Below are positions 29,447-40,786 of a stretch of 40,786 bases of DNA, in pieces. Made by a program: the position numbers and the translations under genes. Each line of letters begins with the position of its first letter. Positions within the stretch are counted from its first letter, which is position 1. Source of the DNA: Candidatus Zixiibacteriota bacterium (lineage in GTDB: Bacteria > Zixibacteria > MSB-5A5 > WJJR01). The stretch covers positions 1-40,786 of the forward strand of contig DASWIS010000002.1 of NCBI GenBank assembly GCA_036397555.1. Direction: 5' to 3'. The notes beneath the pieces were generated by a model. That model did not search any database. It had not been told where the DNA came from and saw nothing but the letters and a program-made list of their open reading frames with translations.

Positions 29447-32400
29447 TTATACACCGTCGACTCGGACACTTTCACTGATTGGCTGACGTTTCGCCCCAAA
29501 CAGCGCGTACAATGCCGGAAGAACGAACAACGTCAGCGCCGTCGAGGTCAGGATCCCGCCAATGACGACCGTGGCCAGCGGGCGCTGGACCTCAGCGCCG
29601 ACGCTATGCGACAGCGCCATCGGGATGAAGCCGAAGGATGCGACCAACGCCGTCATCAGCACCGGCCGCAGTCGCCCGATGGCGCTGTCGCGCACGGCAT
29701 CGGTCAGCATCAGCCCGTCGGTCAGGTGCCCTTTGATCGATGACACCAGCACCAAACCATTGAGCACCGCGATGCCGGAGAGCGCGATAAACCCGACGCC
29801 GGCTGAGATCGAAAACGGCATCCCGCGCACAAAGAGCGAGCACACGCCCCCAAAGACCGCCAATGGCACCCCCGTGAAGATGAGGATGGCGTCGCGGAAC
29901 GAACGGTATGTCCAGTACAGCAGCGCGAAGATGAGCGTCAGCGCCAACGGCACCACTATGGCCAGCCGCGTACGGGCCCGCTGCAGATTCTCGAACTGCC
30001 CGCCATAACGCACGAAATACCCTGGCTGAAATTCGACAGTTCCGTCGATACGTTCGCGCAATTCCTCGACAAAGGAGCCGACATCCCGGCCCCGTACATT
30101 GCACTGCACGACGATCCGGCGCTTGCTCCACTCACGCGTAATCGTCGACGGACCATTGTGGAGTTCCGGCCGCGTGATCTGGTCGAGCGTGACGATGGCG
30201 CCGGTTTCCGACCGGATCGGCAGACGGGCGATGTCCTCGGTGACACGGCGGTACGATTCCATCATGCGCACTTCGAGATCGAAGCGGCGCTGCCCTTCAT
30301 AAACTTCCCCCACATGAATCCCGCCAAAGCTCTCGACATGATCGAGCGCCTCGCGCGCCGCCAGCCCATAACGAGCCAGCTTATCACGGTCCAGGGCGAT
30401 GTCGAATTGCGGCTGCCCGGTGATTTGCTCGACTGTGACGTCGGCCGCGCCGTCGAGAGTCTGCACCAGAGCCGCAATCTCTTCGGCCTTCTGTACGAGG
30501 ACGGAGAGATCATCACCGAAGACCTTGATGCCGATATCGCCGCGAATACCGGCAATCATCTCGTTGATGCGCATTTCGATCGGCTGCGTGAACACGAGAT
30601 TCATCCCCGGCAGATCGGAGAGCTCCTGATCGATCAGTTCAACCAATTCCGCTTGCGATCGTGACCGGCGCCACTCGTTGCGCGGCTTCAGCGTGATGAA
30701 AACATCGCTGACCTCCAATCCCATCGGATCGGTGGCCAATTCCGCCGTGCCCGTGCGTGTCCACGCGTGGTCGATTTCATCGGGAAATGCATCCAGGAGG
30801 ATCTGCTCGACGCGCGTGCCGTATTCGACAGACTGCTCCAATGAGACTCCGGCCAGCCGCACCAGATTGATCGCGATCGTGCCCTCGGACAGGCGCGGAA
30901 CAAATTCAGAGCCGAGCTGGCCAAAGAGCAAGACGCCGCCCACGACGAGTATCAGCGCCATGGCGATGGCCGCGCGCGCGTGACGCAGAGTCCAATCCAG
31001 CGGGGCGCGATACGCTCGTTTAAGCCATTCGACGACGCGCGGTTCACGACGGCCGACATTATCCCGGAGAAATGTTGCGATCATCGCGGGAATGACGGAA
31101 AAGGACAACAACATCGAGCCGAAGAGCACCAGCACGACCGTGATCGCCATCGGGCGAAACAGTTTCCCCTCGATCCCCTCGAGCGTCAGGATGGGCAGAT
31201 ACACCACAATGATGATCAGTTCGCCGAAGAGCGTCGGCTTGCGAACTTCCATGATCGCGCGACGGATGATATCCAGCCGTGACGGCGACCCTGCGTGCTC
31301 CGCCAACCGCCGTATGCTGTTTTCCACCTGAATGACCGTATTGTCGACCGCGAGCCCGAAATCGATGGCCCCCAGACTCATCAGGCTGCCGGCGATCCCC
31401 AGCCGCGTCATCATGTCGAAGGCGAACAGCATCGACAGTGGGATCGCCGACGCCACAATCAGCCCGGAACGGAGGTTACCAAGAAAGATGAAGAGAATGG
31501 CGACGACCAGCAGCGCGCCAAAGAAGAGATTCTCGCGAACCGTGTGCAGCACCTGATCGACCAGGTCGGTGCGGCGGTATACTGTTCGCGCTTCGACACC
31601 CTCCGGCAGAGTCCGTTTGATCTCTTCGAGGCGTTCATCGAGACGTCGGGTTACGTCGGCTGAGTTTTCGCCGACGAGCATGAATCCCAGCCCCAGGACG
31701 ACCTCGCCCTGACCGTTGTAGGTCGTCGCACCGCGACGGATCTCGTGGCCGATCACCACCTCGCCGATGTCGTGCACGTGGATGGGCGCGCCTTCGACCG
31801 TGGCGACGACCAACTCATCGATGTCCTCGCGCGTGGAAACGATTCCGACCCCGCGCACCAGCGTCCGTTCGCCGCCGCGCACCATCTGCCCCCCGGCGAC
31901 ATTGCCGATGTTCTCCCGCAGCACGTCGATGACGTGCGTCAACGTGATGCCGTAGCGCACCAAGCGATTCGGATCGACGAGTACGTGGTACTGTCGCTGG
32001 TATCCGCCCCAGCCGTTGATCTCGGCCACGCCGGGCACCGACTGCAGTTGCGGCTTGACGATCCAGTCCTGCACCGTGCGAGCATAGGTCGGATCGGCAG
32101 ATTCGGCGATCAACACATAATGGAAGACTTCGCCCAGTCCGGTTGAGATCGGACCGAGGACCGGCGCTTCGATTCCATCGGGCAGCGTTACGCCGACCAG
32201 TCTCTCAGTTGTCTGCTGACGGGCCAGATAGAGATCGATATCGTCATCGAAGAGCAGCGTCACCTGCGCCAGGCCGAATTTCGAGATCGAGCGCACCTCC
32301 GATAGTCCCGAAAGCCCGGCCAATTCGCGTTCGATGGGATACGTGATCTGCCGCTCGATGTCCTCCGGAGTCCAGCCCGATGCCGTGACATTCACCTGCA

Positions 32401-32584
32401 CCATGACCGGCGTCGTGTCGGGAAAGGCGTCAAACGGCAGGCGTGTCAACGCGATGACGCCGACGACGACCAAGAGGGCGGCCGCGAAGAGCATCAATCC
32501 TCGGTATTGGATGGTGAAGCCAATCCATCGTCCGAGGAGTGAGTCGCTGTCGTCTGCGGGTGCCGGATGAGACGGCCCCTTCAC
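29447..32584 (-). CDS. Heavy-metal efflux RND pump (CusA/CzcA family)
   Basis: 1045 residues from GTG 32584. This start has GGAGG 7 nt upstream and overlaps the membrane-fusion protein's stop in a GTGA motif; TTG 32605 is less likely. It has the RND plan: one helix, a large periplasmic loop, six helices, then the same again. Early markers are DAFPDTTPVMVQVNV and ARQQTTERL. The transmembrane-4 motif GAIDFGLAVDNTVIQVENS, with Asp415 and Asp421 (numbered from TTG 32605), is the proton-relay signature of the heavy-metal group. Proton-driven export of Cu/Ag or Zn/Co/Cd/Ni from periplasm and cytoplasm is known for the family; the metal cannot be read from these motifs. No outer-membrane channel gene is in the window. 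Confidence 0.96.
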   Translation of the reverse strand: MKGPSHPAPADDSDSLLGRWIGFTIQYRGLMLFAAALLVVVGVIALTRLPFDAFPDTTPVMVQVNVTASGWTPEDIERQITYPIERELAGLSGLSEVRSISKFGLAQVTLLFDDDIDLYLARQQTTERLVGVTLPDGIEAPVLGPISTGLGEVFHYVLIAESADPTYARTVQDWIVKPQLQSVPGVAEINGWGGYQRQYHVLVDPNRLVRYGITLTHVIDVLRENIGNVAGGQMVRGGERTLVRGVGIVSTREDIDELVVATVEGAPIHVHDIGEVVIGHEIRRGATTYNGQGEVVLGLGFMLVGENSADVTRRLDERLEEIKRTLPEGVEARTVYRRTDLVDQVLHTVRENLFFGALLVVAILFIFLGNLRSGLIVASAIPLSMLFAFDMMTRLGIAGSLMSLGAIDFGLAVDNTVIQVENSIRRLAEHAGSPSRLDIIRRAIMEVRKPTLFGELIIIVVYLPILTLEGIEGKLFRPMAITVVLVLFGSMLLSFSVIPAMIATFLRDNVGRREPRVVEWLKRAYRAPLDWTLRHARAAIAMALILVVGGVLLFGQLGSEFVPRLSEGTIAINLVRLAGVSLEQSVEYGTRVEQILLDAFPDEIDHAWTRTGTAELATDPMGLEVSDVFITLKPRNEWRRSRSQAELVELIDQELSDLPGMNLVFTQPIEMRINEMIAGIRGDIGIKVFGDDLSVLVQKAEEIAALVQTLDGAADVTVEQITGQPQFDIALDRDKLARYGLAAREALDHVESFGGIHVGEVYEGQRRFDLEVRMMESYRRVTEDIARLPIRSETGAIVTLDQITRPELHNGPSTITREWSKRRIVVQCNVRGRDVGSFVEELRERIDGTVEFQPGYFVRYGGQFENLQRARTRLAIVVPLALTLIFALLYWTYRSFRDAILIFTGVPLAVFGGVCSLFVRGMPFSISAGVGFIALSGIAVLNGLVLVSSIKGHLTDGLMLTDAVRDSAIGRLRPVLMTALVASFGFIPMALSHSVGAEVQRPLATVVIGGILTSTALTLFVLPALYALFGAKRQPISESVRVDGV

Positions 32585-34257
32585 GATGCCGCCTCCAGTC
32601 CGCAACAGCCGGCCCCGATGCTTCCCTTCTGCAGTTCCGTCTTTAACAGGTAGCTGCCCTCCACGACAACCGACTCGCCGGGCCGCAGACCGTCAAGCAC
32701 GCGATAGTGGCCGCTTTCGCCGGTCTCCAGCCGTACTTTGCGCGGGCGAAATCGCTCGGGCGACTCCTGCACGAAGACGACATTGCAGCAGCCTTCCCAC
32801 TGCACCGCGTCATGGGGGACAAGAATCGCCGACTGCAGAGTCCCGTCGGGAAGTTGCAGCCGGCCGAACTGGTGCGCGCGAACGTGCGTCGTGGCGCGAG
32901 TCGGCTTCACCCGGACGATGCCGGTGCGGGTGTGGGGATCGAGGTACTGGGAAATCCAAATGACGGTACCGACGACCGGATCGGAATTGCCCGCGTCGGA
33001 GAGGAAGTTGACGGTTTGGCCCACCTCCACGCGTGAGAGGTCGCGATCGCGCACATCGGCTTCAACCCAGATTGCGGCGGGGTCACCGACGACTGCCATC
33101 GTCACGCCCGGCTCGATCAATGTGCCCAATGCGGCAGGTCGTTCCAGCAGCGCCCCACCGACGACTGATCGGAGCGTAAACTGCGACGAGACGGCGCCGC
33201 GTTCACGAAGCGCCAGCAGATCACTCTCGGCCAACCCGGCAAGCCGCAATTGGCTGGCCAGTTCCACGCAGTGCCCCTCGGCAGCAACTGCATCGGCCAT
33301 CGTGCGTTCGTATCCGGCCGAGTCGATCAGTCCACGCGCGAGCAATGCTTCGGCGCGTTCGCGTTCGCGGGCATGCACACGCCAGTCGCTCCATCCTTTC
33401 AGATACGCGCCCTGCAGCGATGCCATCTGCGGCGATTCGACATCCGCCAACGGCGCATCGGCATCCACAGGAGTGCCCGGCTCGACGCGCCAGCGGCGAA
33501 TAGTCACGGGAATGGTCGAGGAGATCATCGTCGTGCGCGTCTGATCAAAGACCGTCTCGGCCGGCGCCTCGAATCGATGCCCTCCCAGTCCGATCGTGAC
33601 CGGCATCGCACGAATTCCCGCGCGGTCGGCGGTTTGAATCGAGGCGAACTGAATGACCGACCCATCAGTCGGGCACAACGGCTGATTCTTCTCAAAGATC
33701 ACCGACAAACCCGGAAAGCGTGAGTCCTCAGACGTCGAGCCCGGCCCCGAAGCCGTCTGGGCCGGACCTTGACCATCAATTTGCGAGTGTTCACTTCCAC
33801 CCTGGGAATGTCCGTGGCCATCGTCTATGACGGCAGCACGAACCAATCCAGGATTGCAAAGCTCACACTGGGATTCCGGGACATCGTGCCCGGCGCACCA
33901 GTCGCCGCTCTCCTTAAACGACGCGATGAGTTCCGGGTGGCACCGTGCGCAGATGTTCGCGCTTAATCCATGCGGACAGACGGCTGATGCCGCGCGTGCG
34001 AGCCCCGGGTTGCAGAGCTCGCATTGGGACTCCGGGACATTGTGCTCAACACACCAGTCGCCGCTCTCTGTGAACCTGGGTATCAGAGCCGAATTGCACC
34101 GGGTGCACAGATCGACGTCTATGCCATGCACAGCGCAGACGGCTGTGGCCACACGTTCCGATTGTATCTGTGAGGATGGCGACCTCTGTCCGGCAAACCA
34201 GCCGATCAAGGCGCCGACTGCCAGCAGGGTGGTGTAGACAATGACATTCTTGCGCAT
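32581..34257 (-). CDS. RND membrane-fusion protein with a duplicated Cys/His N-terminal module
   Basis: 558 residues. GAGAGGA about 9 nt upstream supports ATG 34257. An N-terminal membrane segment (VIVYTTLLAVGALIGWFAG) is followed by two copies of a ~50-residue Cys/His motif (41-89 and 94-140). Each has C..HG, CxxC, FxESGDWC, then H[ND]VPESQCELCNPGL. A His-rich linker (DDGHGHSQGGSEHS) leads to the usual adaptor core: barrel-sandwich and hairpin segments (residues ~225-370), beta-barrel and membrane-proximal domain. The C-terminus contains GCCNVVF and ends IGAGCCGLE. Family knowledge: the CusB/CzcB adaptor links the pump to an outer-membrane channel and passes metal on. The Cys modules are not part of the normal adaptor and look like metal-binding additions. 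Confidence 0.92.
   Translation of the reverse strand: MRKNVIVYTTLLAVGALIGWFAGQRSPSSQIQSERVATAVCAVHGIDVDLCTRCNSALIPRFTESGDWCVEHNVPESQCELCNPGLARAASAVCPHGLSANICARCHPELIASFKESGDWCAGHDVPESQCELCNPGLVRAAVIDDGHGHSQGGSEHSQIDGQGPAQTASGPGSTSEDSRFPGLSVIFEKNQPLCPTDGSVIQFASIQTADRAGIRAMPVTIGLGGHRFEAPAETVFDQTRTTMISSTIPVTIRRWRVEPGTPVDADAPLADVESPQMASLQGAYLKGWSDWRVHARERERAEALLARGLIDSAGYERTMADAVAAEGHCVELASQLRLAGLAESDLLALRERGAVSSQFTLRSVVGGALLERPAALGTLIEPGVTMAVVGDPAAIWVEADVRDRDLSRVEVGQTVNFLSDAGNSDPVVGTVIWISQYLDPHTRTGIVRVKPTRATTHVRAHQFGRLQLPDGTLQSAILVPHDAVQWEGCCNVVFVQESPERFRPRKVRLETGESGHYRVLDGLRPGESVVVEGSYLLKTELQKGSIGAGCCGLEAAS
33840..34137 (-). repeat. Tandem Cys/His module duplication in the membrane-fusion gene
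   Basis: Two units with a period of 159 bp (53 codons) encode the repeated Cys/His motif. The DNA from about 33849 to 33910 matches 34008 to 34070 at most positions, including the shared CACCAGTCGCCGCTCTC. The duplication is thus fairly recent compared with the SBBP repeats. Confidence 0.85.
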
Positions 34258-34363: not shown

Positions 34364-34657
34364 TTAGGAAGAGCGAGGCGGTCGGAACAGACCCTGGGGG
34401 TCGCATTGGACCGAGACATCAGAGGATGACTCGGCGATCTCACCGAGACACATCAATGAGTTGACCCGTACATCGAGCAGCGGCACGACACAAAAAGAAC
34501 AGGCGCAATGGCAGGCGCAGATTTCATCGCAACGCGCTTCGTCGCAACAGTCTTCTGCGTCACAGATGACACACGTGGCGTATCCCGCAAACAGCGCCAC
34601 CAGTATCAGCAGGCCGACCAACCGGCCGGACATTGTATCGGATAGTCTCATGACCAT
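34364..34657 (-). CDS. Small Cys-rich secreted or membrane protein
   Basis: 97 residues with a membrane or signal segment (LVGLLILVALFAGYAT, about 13-28) followed directly by a dense Cys block: CVICDAEDCCDEARCDEI then CACHCACSFC, eleven Cys within about 33 residues together with one His and several Asp/Glu. The tail contains two more Cys. The composition suggests metal binding in the periplasm, like small copper or zinc scavengers. It is the first gene before the RND adaptor and pump on the same strand, and a promoter/dyad precedes it. No family is recognised. No clear Shine-Dalgarno stands before ATG 34657 or ATG 34651, so it may be translated from a very short leader. Confidence 0.65.
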   Translation of the reverse strand: MVMRLSDTMSGRLVGLLILVALFAGYATCVICDAEDCCDEARCDEICACHCACSFCVVPLLDVRVNSLMCLGEIAESSSDVSVQCDPQGLFRPPRSS

Positions 34658-34786: not shown

Positions 34787-35032
34787 CTACTGGTGGGCGG
34801 CGACTACGGCGCTCCGGACACCCGGCAGGTGCTCGTTGCACCATCCACGCAGGTGGGTCGCGGTGACTACGGATTCTCTGGCACGCGCTTCTCCGATCAC
34901 CACGCCGCAGACATCGCACCGCAGACGGATGACCTGGCCTGAACCATGATACACTCTCGGTTTTCTTGTACGCGAAGGCTGGATAGAATTGGCCATTGGG
35001 ACGGGTGAGACGCTCCTTTGTTGACCCTCCAT
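34787..35032 (-). CDS. Small Cys/His (zinc-ribbon-like) protein
   Basis: 81 residues from ATG 35032, or 69 from ATG 34996 (MANSIQPSR). A good AAGGAG lies at about 35008-35013, but it is 15 nt from ATG 34996. The core reads VIRLRCDVCGVVIGEARA, then HLRGWCNEHLPG, that is CxxC and CxxH about 25 residues apart, a likely zinc site. No membrane segment. TATAAT on the minus strand overlaps ATG 35032, which favours the shorter start. It lies upstream of the metal-efflux dyad on the same strand. I do not recognise a family. A chance frame is possible but the paired metal-ligand motifs argue for a real protein. Confidence 0.5.
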   Translation of the reverse strand: MEGQQRSVSPVPMANSIQPSRTRKPRVYHGSGQVIRLRCDVCGVVIGEARARESVVTATHLRGWCNEHLPGVRSAVVAAHQ

Positions 35033-38177: not shown

Positions 38178-40786
38178 ATGAACAGCCGCATCTGGTGTCG
38201 ATGTTGTGTGTCCATCGTCGCACTTGTCGTTTCGCTGACAAATGTCGGACACGCAGCCGAGCAGTCCTCACAGCGCCACCAGCCGTCGACTCTTTCCAGC
38301 AACGAGGCAACGGTCTGTGTGCTGACGATCAACTGTCCGGCCGATAAGACCATCCAGTGTCATCAATCGAACAATCCGTCATTCACCGGGACGGCGACCT
38401 ATACATCGAATCCTGATTGCGGCACGGTGACCTTGACTTACAGCGATGCGGAGACGCCGGGCGGATGTCCGGCCGAGAAAACCATCGCGCGCACCTGGAC
38501 GGCGACCGCCACCAGCGGCGATATGGCCAGTTGCGTTCAGACCATCTTCGTCGAAGACACCACACCGCCCTCGTACGGCGGCACGTGCGGCACGAATGCG
38601 AACTATCAGTGCGTCTCACAAGTCCAGCCGCTGGCACTCGGCGGAGTCGGTCCGATCGATCAATGCGATCCGTCGGTTTCGATTTCCAGCTCGCGCAGCG
38701 ACAATGGCGGCTCCGGATGTCCCGGCGATCCCTTGATCTTCACGGATGTTTTCTCGTTTACCGACGACTGCGGCAACTCATCTCAATGCGTGCGCACTCA
38801 TACCGTCATCGACGATACGCCGCCGGTCTTCACGGTCTGTCCGGCCGACTTCGACGCCGGCTGTTTCGCCAATGTCCCACCGTGTGATCCGGGTGATGCG
38901 ACCGCGACCGACAACTGCAGCGCGGTCACCATCACCTGCAATGACAGTCCGCCGCCGGGAGGCGGTTGTTCCGGCACGATCACGAGGACCTATACCGCCA
39001 CCGATGCCTGCGGCAACACGGAGACTTGCGTGCAGCTTATTACGGTCTCCGACGATCCCCCGACGATCGTCTGCCCCGACGACTTCAGCGTCGATTGTCT
39101 CGCCGATGTGCCCGCCTGCGATCCCGGCGATGCCACCGCCACCGATGACTGTGGCGGTGTGACGGTGACCTGCAGCGATGGCCCCCTGGTCGGTGGCACC
39201 TGCTCGGGCACCATCACGCGGACTTTTACGGCGACCGACGACTGCGGCAATCAGACCTCGTGTGATCAGATCATCACGGTGACCGGCGATGTGCCCGCGA
39301 TCTCATGCCCCGCCGACTTCGATGTCGCCTGTCTCGAAGATGTCCCGCCGTGCAATCCCAACGATGCGACCGCGACCGCCAATTGCGGCAGTGTGACCAT
39401 CACCTGCAGCGATGGCCCGCTGGTCGGCGGACCATGCTCCGGTACAATCACGCGCACATACACCGCGACCTACGAGTGCGGCGGGGTAGCGTCGTGTGAT
39501 CAGATCATCACCGTGCTGGGCGACATTCCGACAATCACGTGTCCGGACGATTTCAATGTCGGCTGTTTGGCCGAGTTGCCGCCATGCGATCCCAACGACG
39601 CGACGGTGACGACCAACTGCGGCTCGGTAACAGTTACGTGCAGCGACGGCCCTCTCGTCGGCGACCCGTGCGGGGGCACGGTGACCCGCACCTACGTCGC
39701 TACGTCCGAGTGCGGCAGCATGGCCTCCTGCGATCAGATTATCACGATCGGCGGCAGCTCATCGGTAACGATCTCCTGCCTGTCGAATATCATTGTCCAA
39801 CGCTTTGCCGACTTGCCCCCGTGTGATCCGAATGATGCGACCGTCACCGGCGGGTGCGACGTGGTCGTCACCTGCTTCCGCTCCAGTGTCGGCGGTGTGG
39901 GGTGCACCGATGTTTCGGTTCCGATCACGTACACGTACACGGCCACCGATGCCTGCGGCAACGAGGCGTTCTGCGAGCGGGTGGTGACGGTGCTGCGTCC
40001 CGATTGCCCCTTCTTCGTGGCGGCGGGGGACGTCTCATCGCCGGTGGATGTCGCGGTCGGCGGACGGTCAACCATTCCGATTCGTTTGGACTCCGCGCAG
40101 TCGGATGTCGGCTCCTTCGAGCTGGCCTTCGCCTATGATGACAACGTCTTCAGCATCGCCCAGGTCGAACGGGGATCCGCCTTGGCGGACTGGGAGTACT
40201 TCACCTACCGTTTGGAGACCGGCGTGATCCGTCTGATCGCCATGGCGGATTTGGCCAATGGTGCGATGCATCCCCCGTCGTCGGCGTACCGTCCGGTGGG
40301 GGTGTTGGCCAATGTGACGGTCAATGTGACCCCCAACCGTCAACTGGCGGGTCAGAGTGTCTACTGGCAGGCGTGTCTGGATGGCTGTACCGACAACACC
40401 ATCAGCAGCCGGTCGGGAGACATGACCTTCGTGATGGCGGAGTCGGACTATGAAAACTGTGAAGCGTCGCTGTCCGGCAGTGTGCTGCCCGGTGTCCGGT
40501 TGGCCAGTGCCCAGATGCGGATCGTGGAGCCGGCGGGATCACGGGGTGACATCAACCAGAACGGTCTCTCCTATGAGGTCGGCGATGCGATCCTGCTGGT
40601 CAATTATCTGATCAATGGCGTGGAGGTATTCTCCGAAGATGCCGCGCTGCGGGCATTACAGGTGCAGGCGGGAGATGTCAACGGGGACGGGGTGTCCCTG
40701 ACGGTGGCGGATCTGACCTACCTGATCCGGGTGATCAGCGGCGCGGTCAGTCCGACCATCGAGGCGAAGCTGAGTCCGTATGCGGG
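38178..40786 (+). CDS. Secreted HYR-repeat / cohesin-like / dockerin protein, 3' truncated
   Basis: At least 869 residues; the frame is open to the end of the window. ATG 38178 has GGGGAGG 5 nt upstream. A signal peptide (VSIVALVVSLTNVGHAA) leads to seven HYR-like immunoglobulin repeats (two diverged, then five in strict series). The repeats have CP.D, CDPxDATxT, CS.GP and TYTATD.CGN. A cohesin-like domain follows (about residues 613-735: PVDVAVGGRSTIPIRLDSA, GSFELAFAYDDNVFSI). The end is a canonical dockerin with two calcium loops, GDINQNGLSYEVGDAILLV and GDVNGDGVSLTVADLTYLI. The dockerin differs from the NVFDVVK type of the other two genes. A surface-adhesive or scaffold role is inferred. 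Little or nothing may be missing: the dockerin is nearly finished. Confidence 0.85.
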   Translation, partial: MNSRIWCRCCVSIVALVVSLTNVGHAAEQSSQRHQPSTLSSNEATVCVLTINCPADKTIQCHQSNNPSFTGTATYTSNPDCGTVTLTYSDAETPGGCPAEKTIARTWTATATSGDMASCVQTIFVEDTTPPSYGGTCGTNANYQCVSQVQPLALGGVGPIDQCDPSVSISSSRSDNGGSGCPGDPLIFTDVFSFTDDCGNSSQCVRTHTVIDDTPPVFTVCPADFDAGCFANVPPCDPGDATATDNCSAVTITCNDSPPPGGGCSGTITRTYTATDACGNTETCVQLITVSDDPPTIVCPDDFSVDCLADVPACDPGDATATDDCGGVTVTCSDGPLVGGTCSGTITRTFTATDDCGNQTSCDQIITVTGDVPAISCPADFDVACLEDVPPCNPNDATATANCGSVTITCSDGPLVGGPCSGTITRTYTATYECGGVASCDQIITVLGDIPTITCPDDFNVGCLAELPPCDPNDATVTTNCGSVTVTCSDGPLVGDPCGGTVTRTYVATSECGSMASCDQIITIGGSSSVTISCLSNIIVQRFADLPPCDPNDATVTGGCDVVVTCFRSSVGGVGCTDVSVPITYTYTATDACGNEAFCERVVTVLRPDCPFFVAAGDVSSPVDVAVGGRSTIPIRLDSAQSDVGSFELAFAYDDNVFSIAQVERGSALADWEYFTYRLETGVIRLIAMADLANGAMHPPSSAYRPVGVLANVTVNVTPNRQLAGQSVYWQACLDGCTDNTISSRSGDMTFVMAESDYENCEASLSGSVLPGVRLASAQMRIVEPAGSRGDINQNGLSYEVGDAILLVNYLINGVEVFSEDAALRALQVQAGDVNGDGVSLTVADLTYLIRVISGAVSPTIEAKLSPYA
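38838..40000 (+). repeat. Five tandem HYR repeats with a 78-residue period
   Basis: Units begin at 38838, 39072, 39306, 39540 and 39777, at intervals of 234, 234, 234 and 237 bp. Each codes for a CP/CL start, CDPxDATxT, CS.GP..GG.CSG and TYTATxxCG. Units 2-4 share long near-identical DNA around the segment encoding VTCSDGPLVG. The strict period and DNA similarity point to recent tandem expansion. Confidence 0.9.

Follow-up and report, generated by a model that had tools for sequence, protein, structure and literature searches.

The window analyzed here, the whole stretch of 40,786 nucleotides, carries on its minus strand a Cys-rich leader-like ORF followed by a periplasmic adaptor and a permease of the RND superfamily, whose parts are collected in Table 1. 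No outer-membrane factor was found within the window, the clear ones of this genome being located on other contigs. A tandem repeat with a period of 234 bp (2.5 copies, 75% matches) is also present at 39072-39663.

Table 1. Features of the adaptor-permease locus. Positions are those of the window; aa numbers refer to the adaptor.
Feature	Position	Strand	Basis
P0001, RND periplasmic adaptor (CzcB/CusB type), 558 aa	32581-34257	minus	HlyD_D23, TIGR00999, ZneB
N-terminal membrane anchor, aa 2-23	34189-34254	minus	helix 2-23 in structure model
Module copy 1, aa 41-86; half-sites aa 41-54, 69-82	34000-34137	minus	profile match, motif positions
Module copy 2, aa 94-138; half-sites aa 94-106, 121-134	33844-33978	minus	profile match, model pLDDT 88.8
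Linker with a few His, aa 140-191, predicted disordered	33685-33840	minus	pLDDT < 50
Cys195	33673-33675	minus	invariant across 10 aligned adaptors
Adaptor core, aa 229-539	32641-33573	minus	Pfam and TIGR00999 match ranges
Cys490-Cys491 (WEGCC)	32785-32790	minus	invariant across 10 aligned adaptors
C-terminal Cys551-Cys552 tail (GAGCC)	32602-32607	minus	tail common in fused adaptors
CzcA/CusA-type RND permease, non-Met metal site, DFG in TM4	29447-32605	minus	TIGR00914, ZneA 4k0e, site residues
97-aa Cys-rich leader-like ORF, signal-like start, probably exported, ends LFRPPRSS	34364-34657	minus	homologues, leader-like design

The core of the adaptor is of the CzcB/CusB type, as judged by its match to HlyD_D23 (6.3e-30, 104.5 bits against a cut-off of 30), and its match to TIGR00999, which describes the CzcB/NccB subfamily, falls under the curated cut-off (6.5e-35, 120.6 bits against 319.3), so that the protein is not assigned to that subfamily. 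The closest solved structure is ZneB (3lnn), which is covered by the core only. The permease exceeds the cut-off of TIGR00914 by a wide margin (1176.7 bits against 701.45), in accordance with a heavy-metal RND permease of the CzcA/CusA type.

Two Cys/His modules between the membrane anchor and the core had been described in the first-pass annotation, and they proved to be real by the positions of their half-sites, by profile matching and by self-similarity. At an offset of 52 aa the protein displays 31 identities with itself, a value reached by none of 10000 shuffles of the region. Each module is built of two half-sites of the pattern C-x(1-2)-H-x6-C-x2-C, separated by 14 residues and flanking a helix, and the four CHCC half-sites of the adaptor hold 12 Cys and 4 His at the ligand positions (12 Cys and 5 His in total within aa 38-143). 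Among the 140 distinct, nearly full-length copies that the profile found in the fetched loci, conservation reaches 99-100% at the eight ligand columns and 90-96% at W30, D29, P37, S39, L20, E38 and P46; in the seed profile itself (A1), made of 35 copies picked by their Cys/His pattern, the invariance of the ligands is partly a result of that choice. When the number of copies was compared across homologous adaptors, the half-sites ranged from one to nine per protein. In two planctomycete adaptors (L042:3-1592, plus strand; L045:1-1599, plus strand) the second half-site is altered to WCxxHGVHNCxLHHP and a separate small protein carries the full module.

The predicted structures are consistent with this anatomy. 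A model of the whole adaptor, based on 10 sequences, reached a mean pLDDT of 72.7 and displayed a 10-residue helix in each module, and AlphaFold2 folded a single module of 46 residues (18 sequences) with a pLDDT of 88.8 and one helix at residues 15-24. A Foldseek search of the PDB with the single-module model returned no match, which for so short a model is a weak test. Residues 23-40, 83-91 and 140-191 of the whole-adaptor model have low confidence, which suggests that the modules sit on a flexible arm between the anchor and the core. The last of these stretches had been called a His-rich linker; the linker is there, but it contains only three His, at positions 148, 150 and 157.

The duplication had also been regarded as recent, on account of a DNA repeat said to be well conserved with a period of 159 bp. 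The modules in fact recur at 156 bp (52 aa), 159 bp being the interval at which a 21-nt piece lying upstream of the motif recurs, and a comparison of the copies at the codon level contradicts a recent origin. The two copies are identical at 93 of 138 nucleotides (67.4%), with 22 of 46 third positions, and at 29 of 46 residues (63%), and among the degenerate codons at shared residues 14 of 28 are the same, where 12.7 are expected from local codon usage. Codons at shared residues are thus alike only as by chance, and the repeat is therefore maintained by selection on the protein and not by its youth. TRF reported no tandem array at the module region. The identity of copy 1 is 68% with the first copy from a neighbor genus (L005) and 65% with its sister in the window and, since the two values are so close, the duplication probably predates the split from that genus, a placement based on 46 residues, which are few for firmness.

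In order to relate the module to known domains, Pfam and NCBIfam were searched with the complete adaptor, with its tandem region, with individual copies and with 35 members, and all matches to the module remained below threshold. No CusF family appeared among its Pfam matches, a sequence search of the PDB gave chance-level matches only, and no description of the module was found in a literature search. An annotated heavy-metal domain at this site of the adaptor, which the first-pass annotation had named as the finding that would refute the observation if common to most adaptors, is therefore absent here, in that no Pfam or NCBIfam model exceeds its cut-off. Such a domain does occur at that site in a different class of adaptors, since HMBD-like motifs are present in 15 of the 20 adaptors that served as controls from this phylum, the control loci being the best adaptor-core matches outside the module group. 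The module might accordingly be a divergent HMBD (PF19335) and hence a known domain, a descent that the shared place in the adaptor, the same C-H-C-C order of ligands and the presence of HMBD adaptors in the window's own phylum would favor. We consider it improbable, because HMBD is absent from the families matched at E<=1 by the 35 modules, as it is from those of the whole adaptor, and because the spacing of the module differs and its half-sites are paired around a helix. The two adaptor classes also differ in their permeases, HMBD being coupled to Met-site ones and the module to non-Met ones. An alignment of the module with HMBD by hhalign reached a probability of 15% on nine columns, within the range of column-shuffled controls, a weak comparison given that only two distinct HMBD sequences were gathered; on this result homology to HMBD was set aside.

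The module is no local curiosity and recurs in at least two further phyla. Three phyla were searched with the 35-copy profile. In that of the window, 33 of 132 genomes carry the module; in those to which a Phycisphaerae and a Deltaproteobacteria genome belong, the numbers are 73 of 343 and 48 of 329, respectively, with weak and half-module matches counted. A scan of genome contigs by peptide pattern gave 13 loci, among them ones from Zixibacteria/Zixiibacteriota, Calditrichaeota, Phycisphaerae, other Planctomycetota, Lentisphaeria and Deltaproteobacteria. When 129 genomes of the phylum were searched with the core only, the 30 best matches (E <= 5.8e-87) were all module carriers, the next match being at 7e-31, and the module is therefore a constant part of one adaptor subfamily in this phylum; two weaker core matches, one with an internal stop (G129) and one a fragment (G077), also carry it. 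One scan of viral contigs revealed no relative of the module. Among 72,556 plasmid records it was found in two, both planctomycete, and a related adaptor core in 2,687, the latter search differing in query and E-value limit.

The genomic context of the module was assessed in the window and 80 chosen loci, a non-random set drawn mostly from the better-scoring of the 33, 73 and 48 positive genomes, one of which gave two loci. These 81 loci contain 114 module ORFs, 76 with an adaptor core and 38 stand-alone, and both forms coexist in 33 of them, which is the free and fused arrangement of the CusF/SilB kind. A permease is located directly downstream of 71 of the 76 fused adaptors, and the locus also contains a permease for 34 of the 38 stand-alone ORFs; the loci without a permease match are L196, L197, L200, where the contig ends, and L201 and L238, where the adaptor lies at the border of the sequence. 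A simple pattern of signal and lipobox-like sequence is matched by 29 of the 38 stand-alone ORFs, and on this pattern their products appear to be small, mostly exported and lipoprotein-like. A proline tail was considered as a leader sign in these proteins and rejected, as it occurs in 19 of 38 and equally upstream and downstream, a few having been placed in that count with the wrong operon of two.

The fused adaptors are further distinguished by Cys outside the module. A pair of the WEGCC type was found in 48 of 76 of them against 1 of 13 other adaptors, and a C-terminal Cys tail in 72 of 76 against 1 of 13 adaptors devoid of the module, the single exception (L216) being preceded by a free module protein. 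Annotated examples of the module go under the names of hypothetical protein, CzcB or simply adaptor. In plasmid pK2D_1 an operon annotated as czcC, czcB and czcA is flanked by merA and by the gene of a putative cadmium ATPase, its adaptor being annotated as CzcB and its stand-alone module protein as hypothetical, and in pPL62-1 the module is located inside an annotated RND adaptor.

The residues at the metal site of the permease bear on the nature of the substrate. Asn, Val and Glu of the window permease are aligned with Met573, Met623 and Met672, which we take to be the metal-site methionines of CusA, and the protein therefore lacks the three Met of a Cu/Ag pump. Its closest solved structure is ZneA (4k0e), with which it shares the DFG motif of TM4 and non-Met residues at the CusA positions. 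To assess how general this is, 109 adaptor ORFs were arranged into 96 adaptor-permease pairs, of which the 93 with a permease of sufficient length were retained. All 69 module adaptors are paired with non-Met permeases, mostly N-L-D-E-D (49) or N-V-D-E-D (14), and all 14 HMBD adaptors with permeases of the M-M-E-M-A type, while adaptors with neither domain are paired with nine non-Met permeases and one Met permease. The C-terminal Cys tail follows the same classes, being present in 66 of 69 module adaptors, in none of 14 with HMBD and in 3 of 10 with neither. In a permease tree the most recent common ancestor of the module permeases embraces 78 of the 93 tips with a support of 1.0, and nine of these 78 belong to adaptors of the neither class; because they largely form one clade, these counts are not independent and represent few evolutionary events. 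As read from the site residues, a divalent thiophilic metal, such as Zn2+ or Cd2+, would be the natural substrate. Both adaptor core and permease are homologous to those of the divalent-metal systems ZneB/ZneA and CzcB/CzcA; in contrast, only the core of the adaptor finds a counterpart in ZneB, and the Gln of ZneA is an Asn in most module permeases (67 of 70 in one count, 66 of 69 pairs in the other). Two adaptors of the neither class from the window's own family (L279:4079-5563 and L285:3246-4625, both on the plus strand) carry one Cys/His half-site-like motif and a GAGC tail, with permeases in which Ser replaces the Asp of TM4, and are possibly a minimal or derived form.

Upstream of the adaptor, the leader-like ORF has homologues at the same place in L167, L161 and L176. 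PMC9973294 describes CutF-like sensors as having a signal peptide, a Cys cluster and a C-terminal Pro motif and as being located upstream of metal genes, features that the ORF at 34364-34657 shares, since it appears exported, has a Cys motif and a C-terminal Pro motif, and precedes a metal gene. When this design was scored as a signal-like start, at least four Cys/His and PP near the end, such an ORF preceded 19 of 21 module adaptors of the window's phylum, against none of 21 on the opposite strand. In the third phylum the count was 6 of 18, five being free module proteins, in the Planctomycetota set 2 of 35, one being a free module protein, and before control adaptors 2 of 18. Unlike CutF and CopL leaders, however, the ORF matches no Pfam family at E<=1, and hence not DUF2946, and its score to CopL_fam is 15.7 bits against a cut-off of 40. 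A hairpin is seen before the adaptor start in the window, but across 21 loci RNA structure at this place shows no significant excess, the mean z being -0.64 upstream and -0.49 in-gene (Wilcoxon p = 0.47), which lends no support to a cutFOG-like stem-loop that would mask the next ribosome-binding site. By its design we regard this ORF as a putative leader of the exported CutF kind. Further upstream, at 34787-35032 on the minus strand, an 81-aa ORF with a CDVCG...GWCNEH pattern has a weak match to a C4 zinc finger of the TraR type (E 0.13) and no homologue in the fetched loci.

The module had been proposed to act as a periplasmic metal-capture arm feeding the pump, a proposal that fits its position, the flexible linkers, the conserved ligands, the stand-alone copies and the coupling to the permease; from these features we infer that it binds metal, and also the identity of the metal, the handover and the direction of flow. 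According to PMC4446572, SilB carries a CusF-like domain at its C-terminus, CusF itself is a beta-barrel with Met ligands, and the N-terminus of CusB receives metal from CusF, a transfer that PMC6235853 describes as proceeding via shared-ligand intermediates. The likeness is in a small domain, metal-binding in that case and presumably in this one, which the operon encodes as a free protein and which also occurs in fusion with the adaptor (PMC4446572); the module differs in being N-terminal, repeated, of Cys and His, and of the half-site-helix-half-site build, with no Foldseek match in the PDB, weak as that test is. By analogy with SilB and CusF, we hypothesize that the CHCC arm catches the ion and hands it to the core and the permease, the module being best read as a Cys/His equivalent of the domains that deliver metal in CusF/SilB and HMBD systems, here in a pump for divalent metals. 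Each module would be a small metal-binding domain of two Cys3His half-sites joined by a short helix, and two copies on the arm would provide up to four sites per adaptor chain. The arm would capture a soft divalent metal in the periplasm, most likely Zn2+ or Cd2+, and the ion would be passed, perhaps via Cys195, Cys490-491 and Cys551-552, to the acidic site at which metal enters the CzcA-like permease. In other phyla the same module is also present in the form of small exported proteins of the operon, as CusF is beside CusB. To this reading, a metal-binding domain on a flexible arm capturing a soft divalent ion for the CzcA-like permease, we assign a probability of about 0.6.

Cys3His sites are also typical of structural zinc, which counts against capture, and structural zinc is commonly held by a pair of CxxC knuckles such as each module has. 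The CHCC sites might thus hold zinc permanently in a docking or oligomerization domain that delivers no ion, as is suggested by the knuckles, by the confident fold of the 46-residue module and by weak Pfam near-matches to zinc-finger families, among them zf-B_box_Trim66, which 14 of the 35 members match at 0.0019 in the best case. Nevertheless, one to nine half-sites and free small exported proteins better suit a buffer or carrier, and the module is coupled to the metal-site type of the permease, so that a purely structural role appears unlikely to us. The periplasm is oxidizing, and the Cys of the module could therefore form disulfides, which likewise counts against capture. A disulfide-stabilized domain without metal would agree with the periplasmic location and with two fusions of the module to a thioredoxin-like domain (L043:55-723, plus strand, PF00085 at 2.4e-9; L196:5086-5904, minus strand), which may relate to redox maintenance of its Cys or to another function of the module; an odd number of Cys (three) per half-site and a His conserved at 99-100% point instead to metal ligands, and we hold this possibility to be very remote. 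Finally, the binding of metal to the arm might turn the pump on, as proposed for CusB, the arm then being a switch and not a carrier. Direct activation of CusA by CusB is reported in PMC4446572, and sequence cannot separate a gate from capture; nonetheless, a switch needs neither a variable copy number nor free copies, and we deem a gate improbable.

Capture by the arm remains our preferred reading, and it may be part of something larger. We tentatively suggest, at less than even odds, that these systems form a separate class of heavy-metal RND pumps with a thiolate/imidazole relay, dedicated to soft divalent metals (Cd2+, Zn2+, Pb2+, Hg2+), in which the kind of N-terminal domain, HMBD or CHCC, would tell the metal class. 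Its parts would be the N-(L/V)-D-E permease site, the tandem CHCC modules, Cys195, the membrane-proximal Cys pair and the Cys-Cys tail. Some phyla would have the module as free chaperones too, and in others a nascent exported sensor of the CutF kind would control expression.

RND adaptors with metal-delivery domains are already known from CusF/SilB and HMBD, and the module would add a Cys/His variant to them. The module is real, widespread and without a model in the copies of Pfam and NCBIfam searched. If it delivers metal, it would represent a second answer, readable from sequence, to how RND pumps pick periplasmic ions, many uncultured bacteria could have the metal class of their pumps predicted, and a role would be found for small proteins at present annotated as hypothetical.
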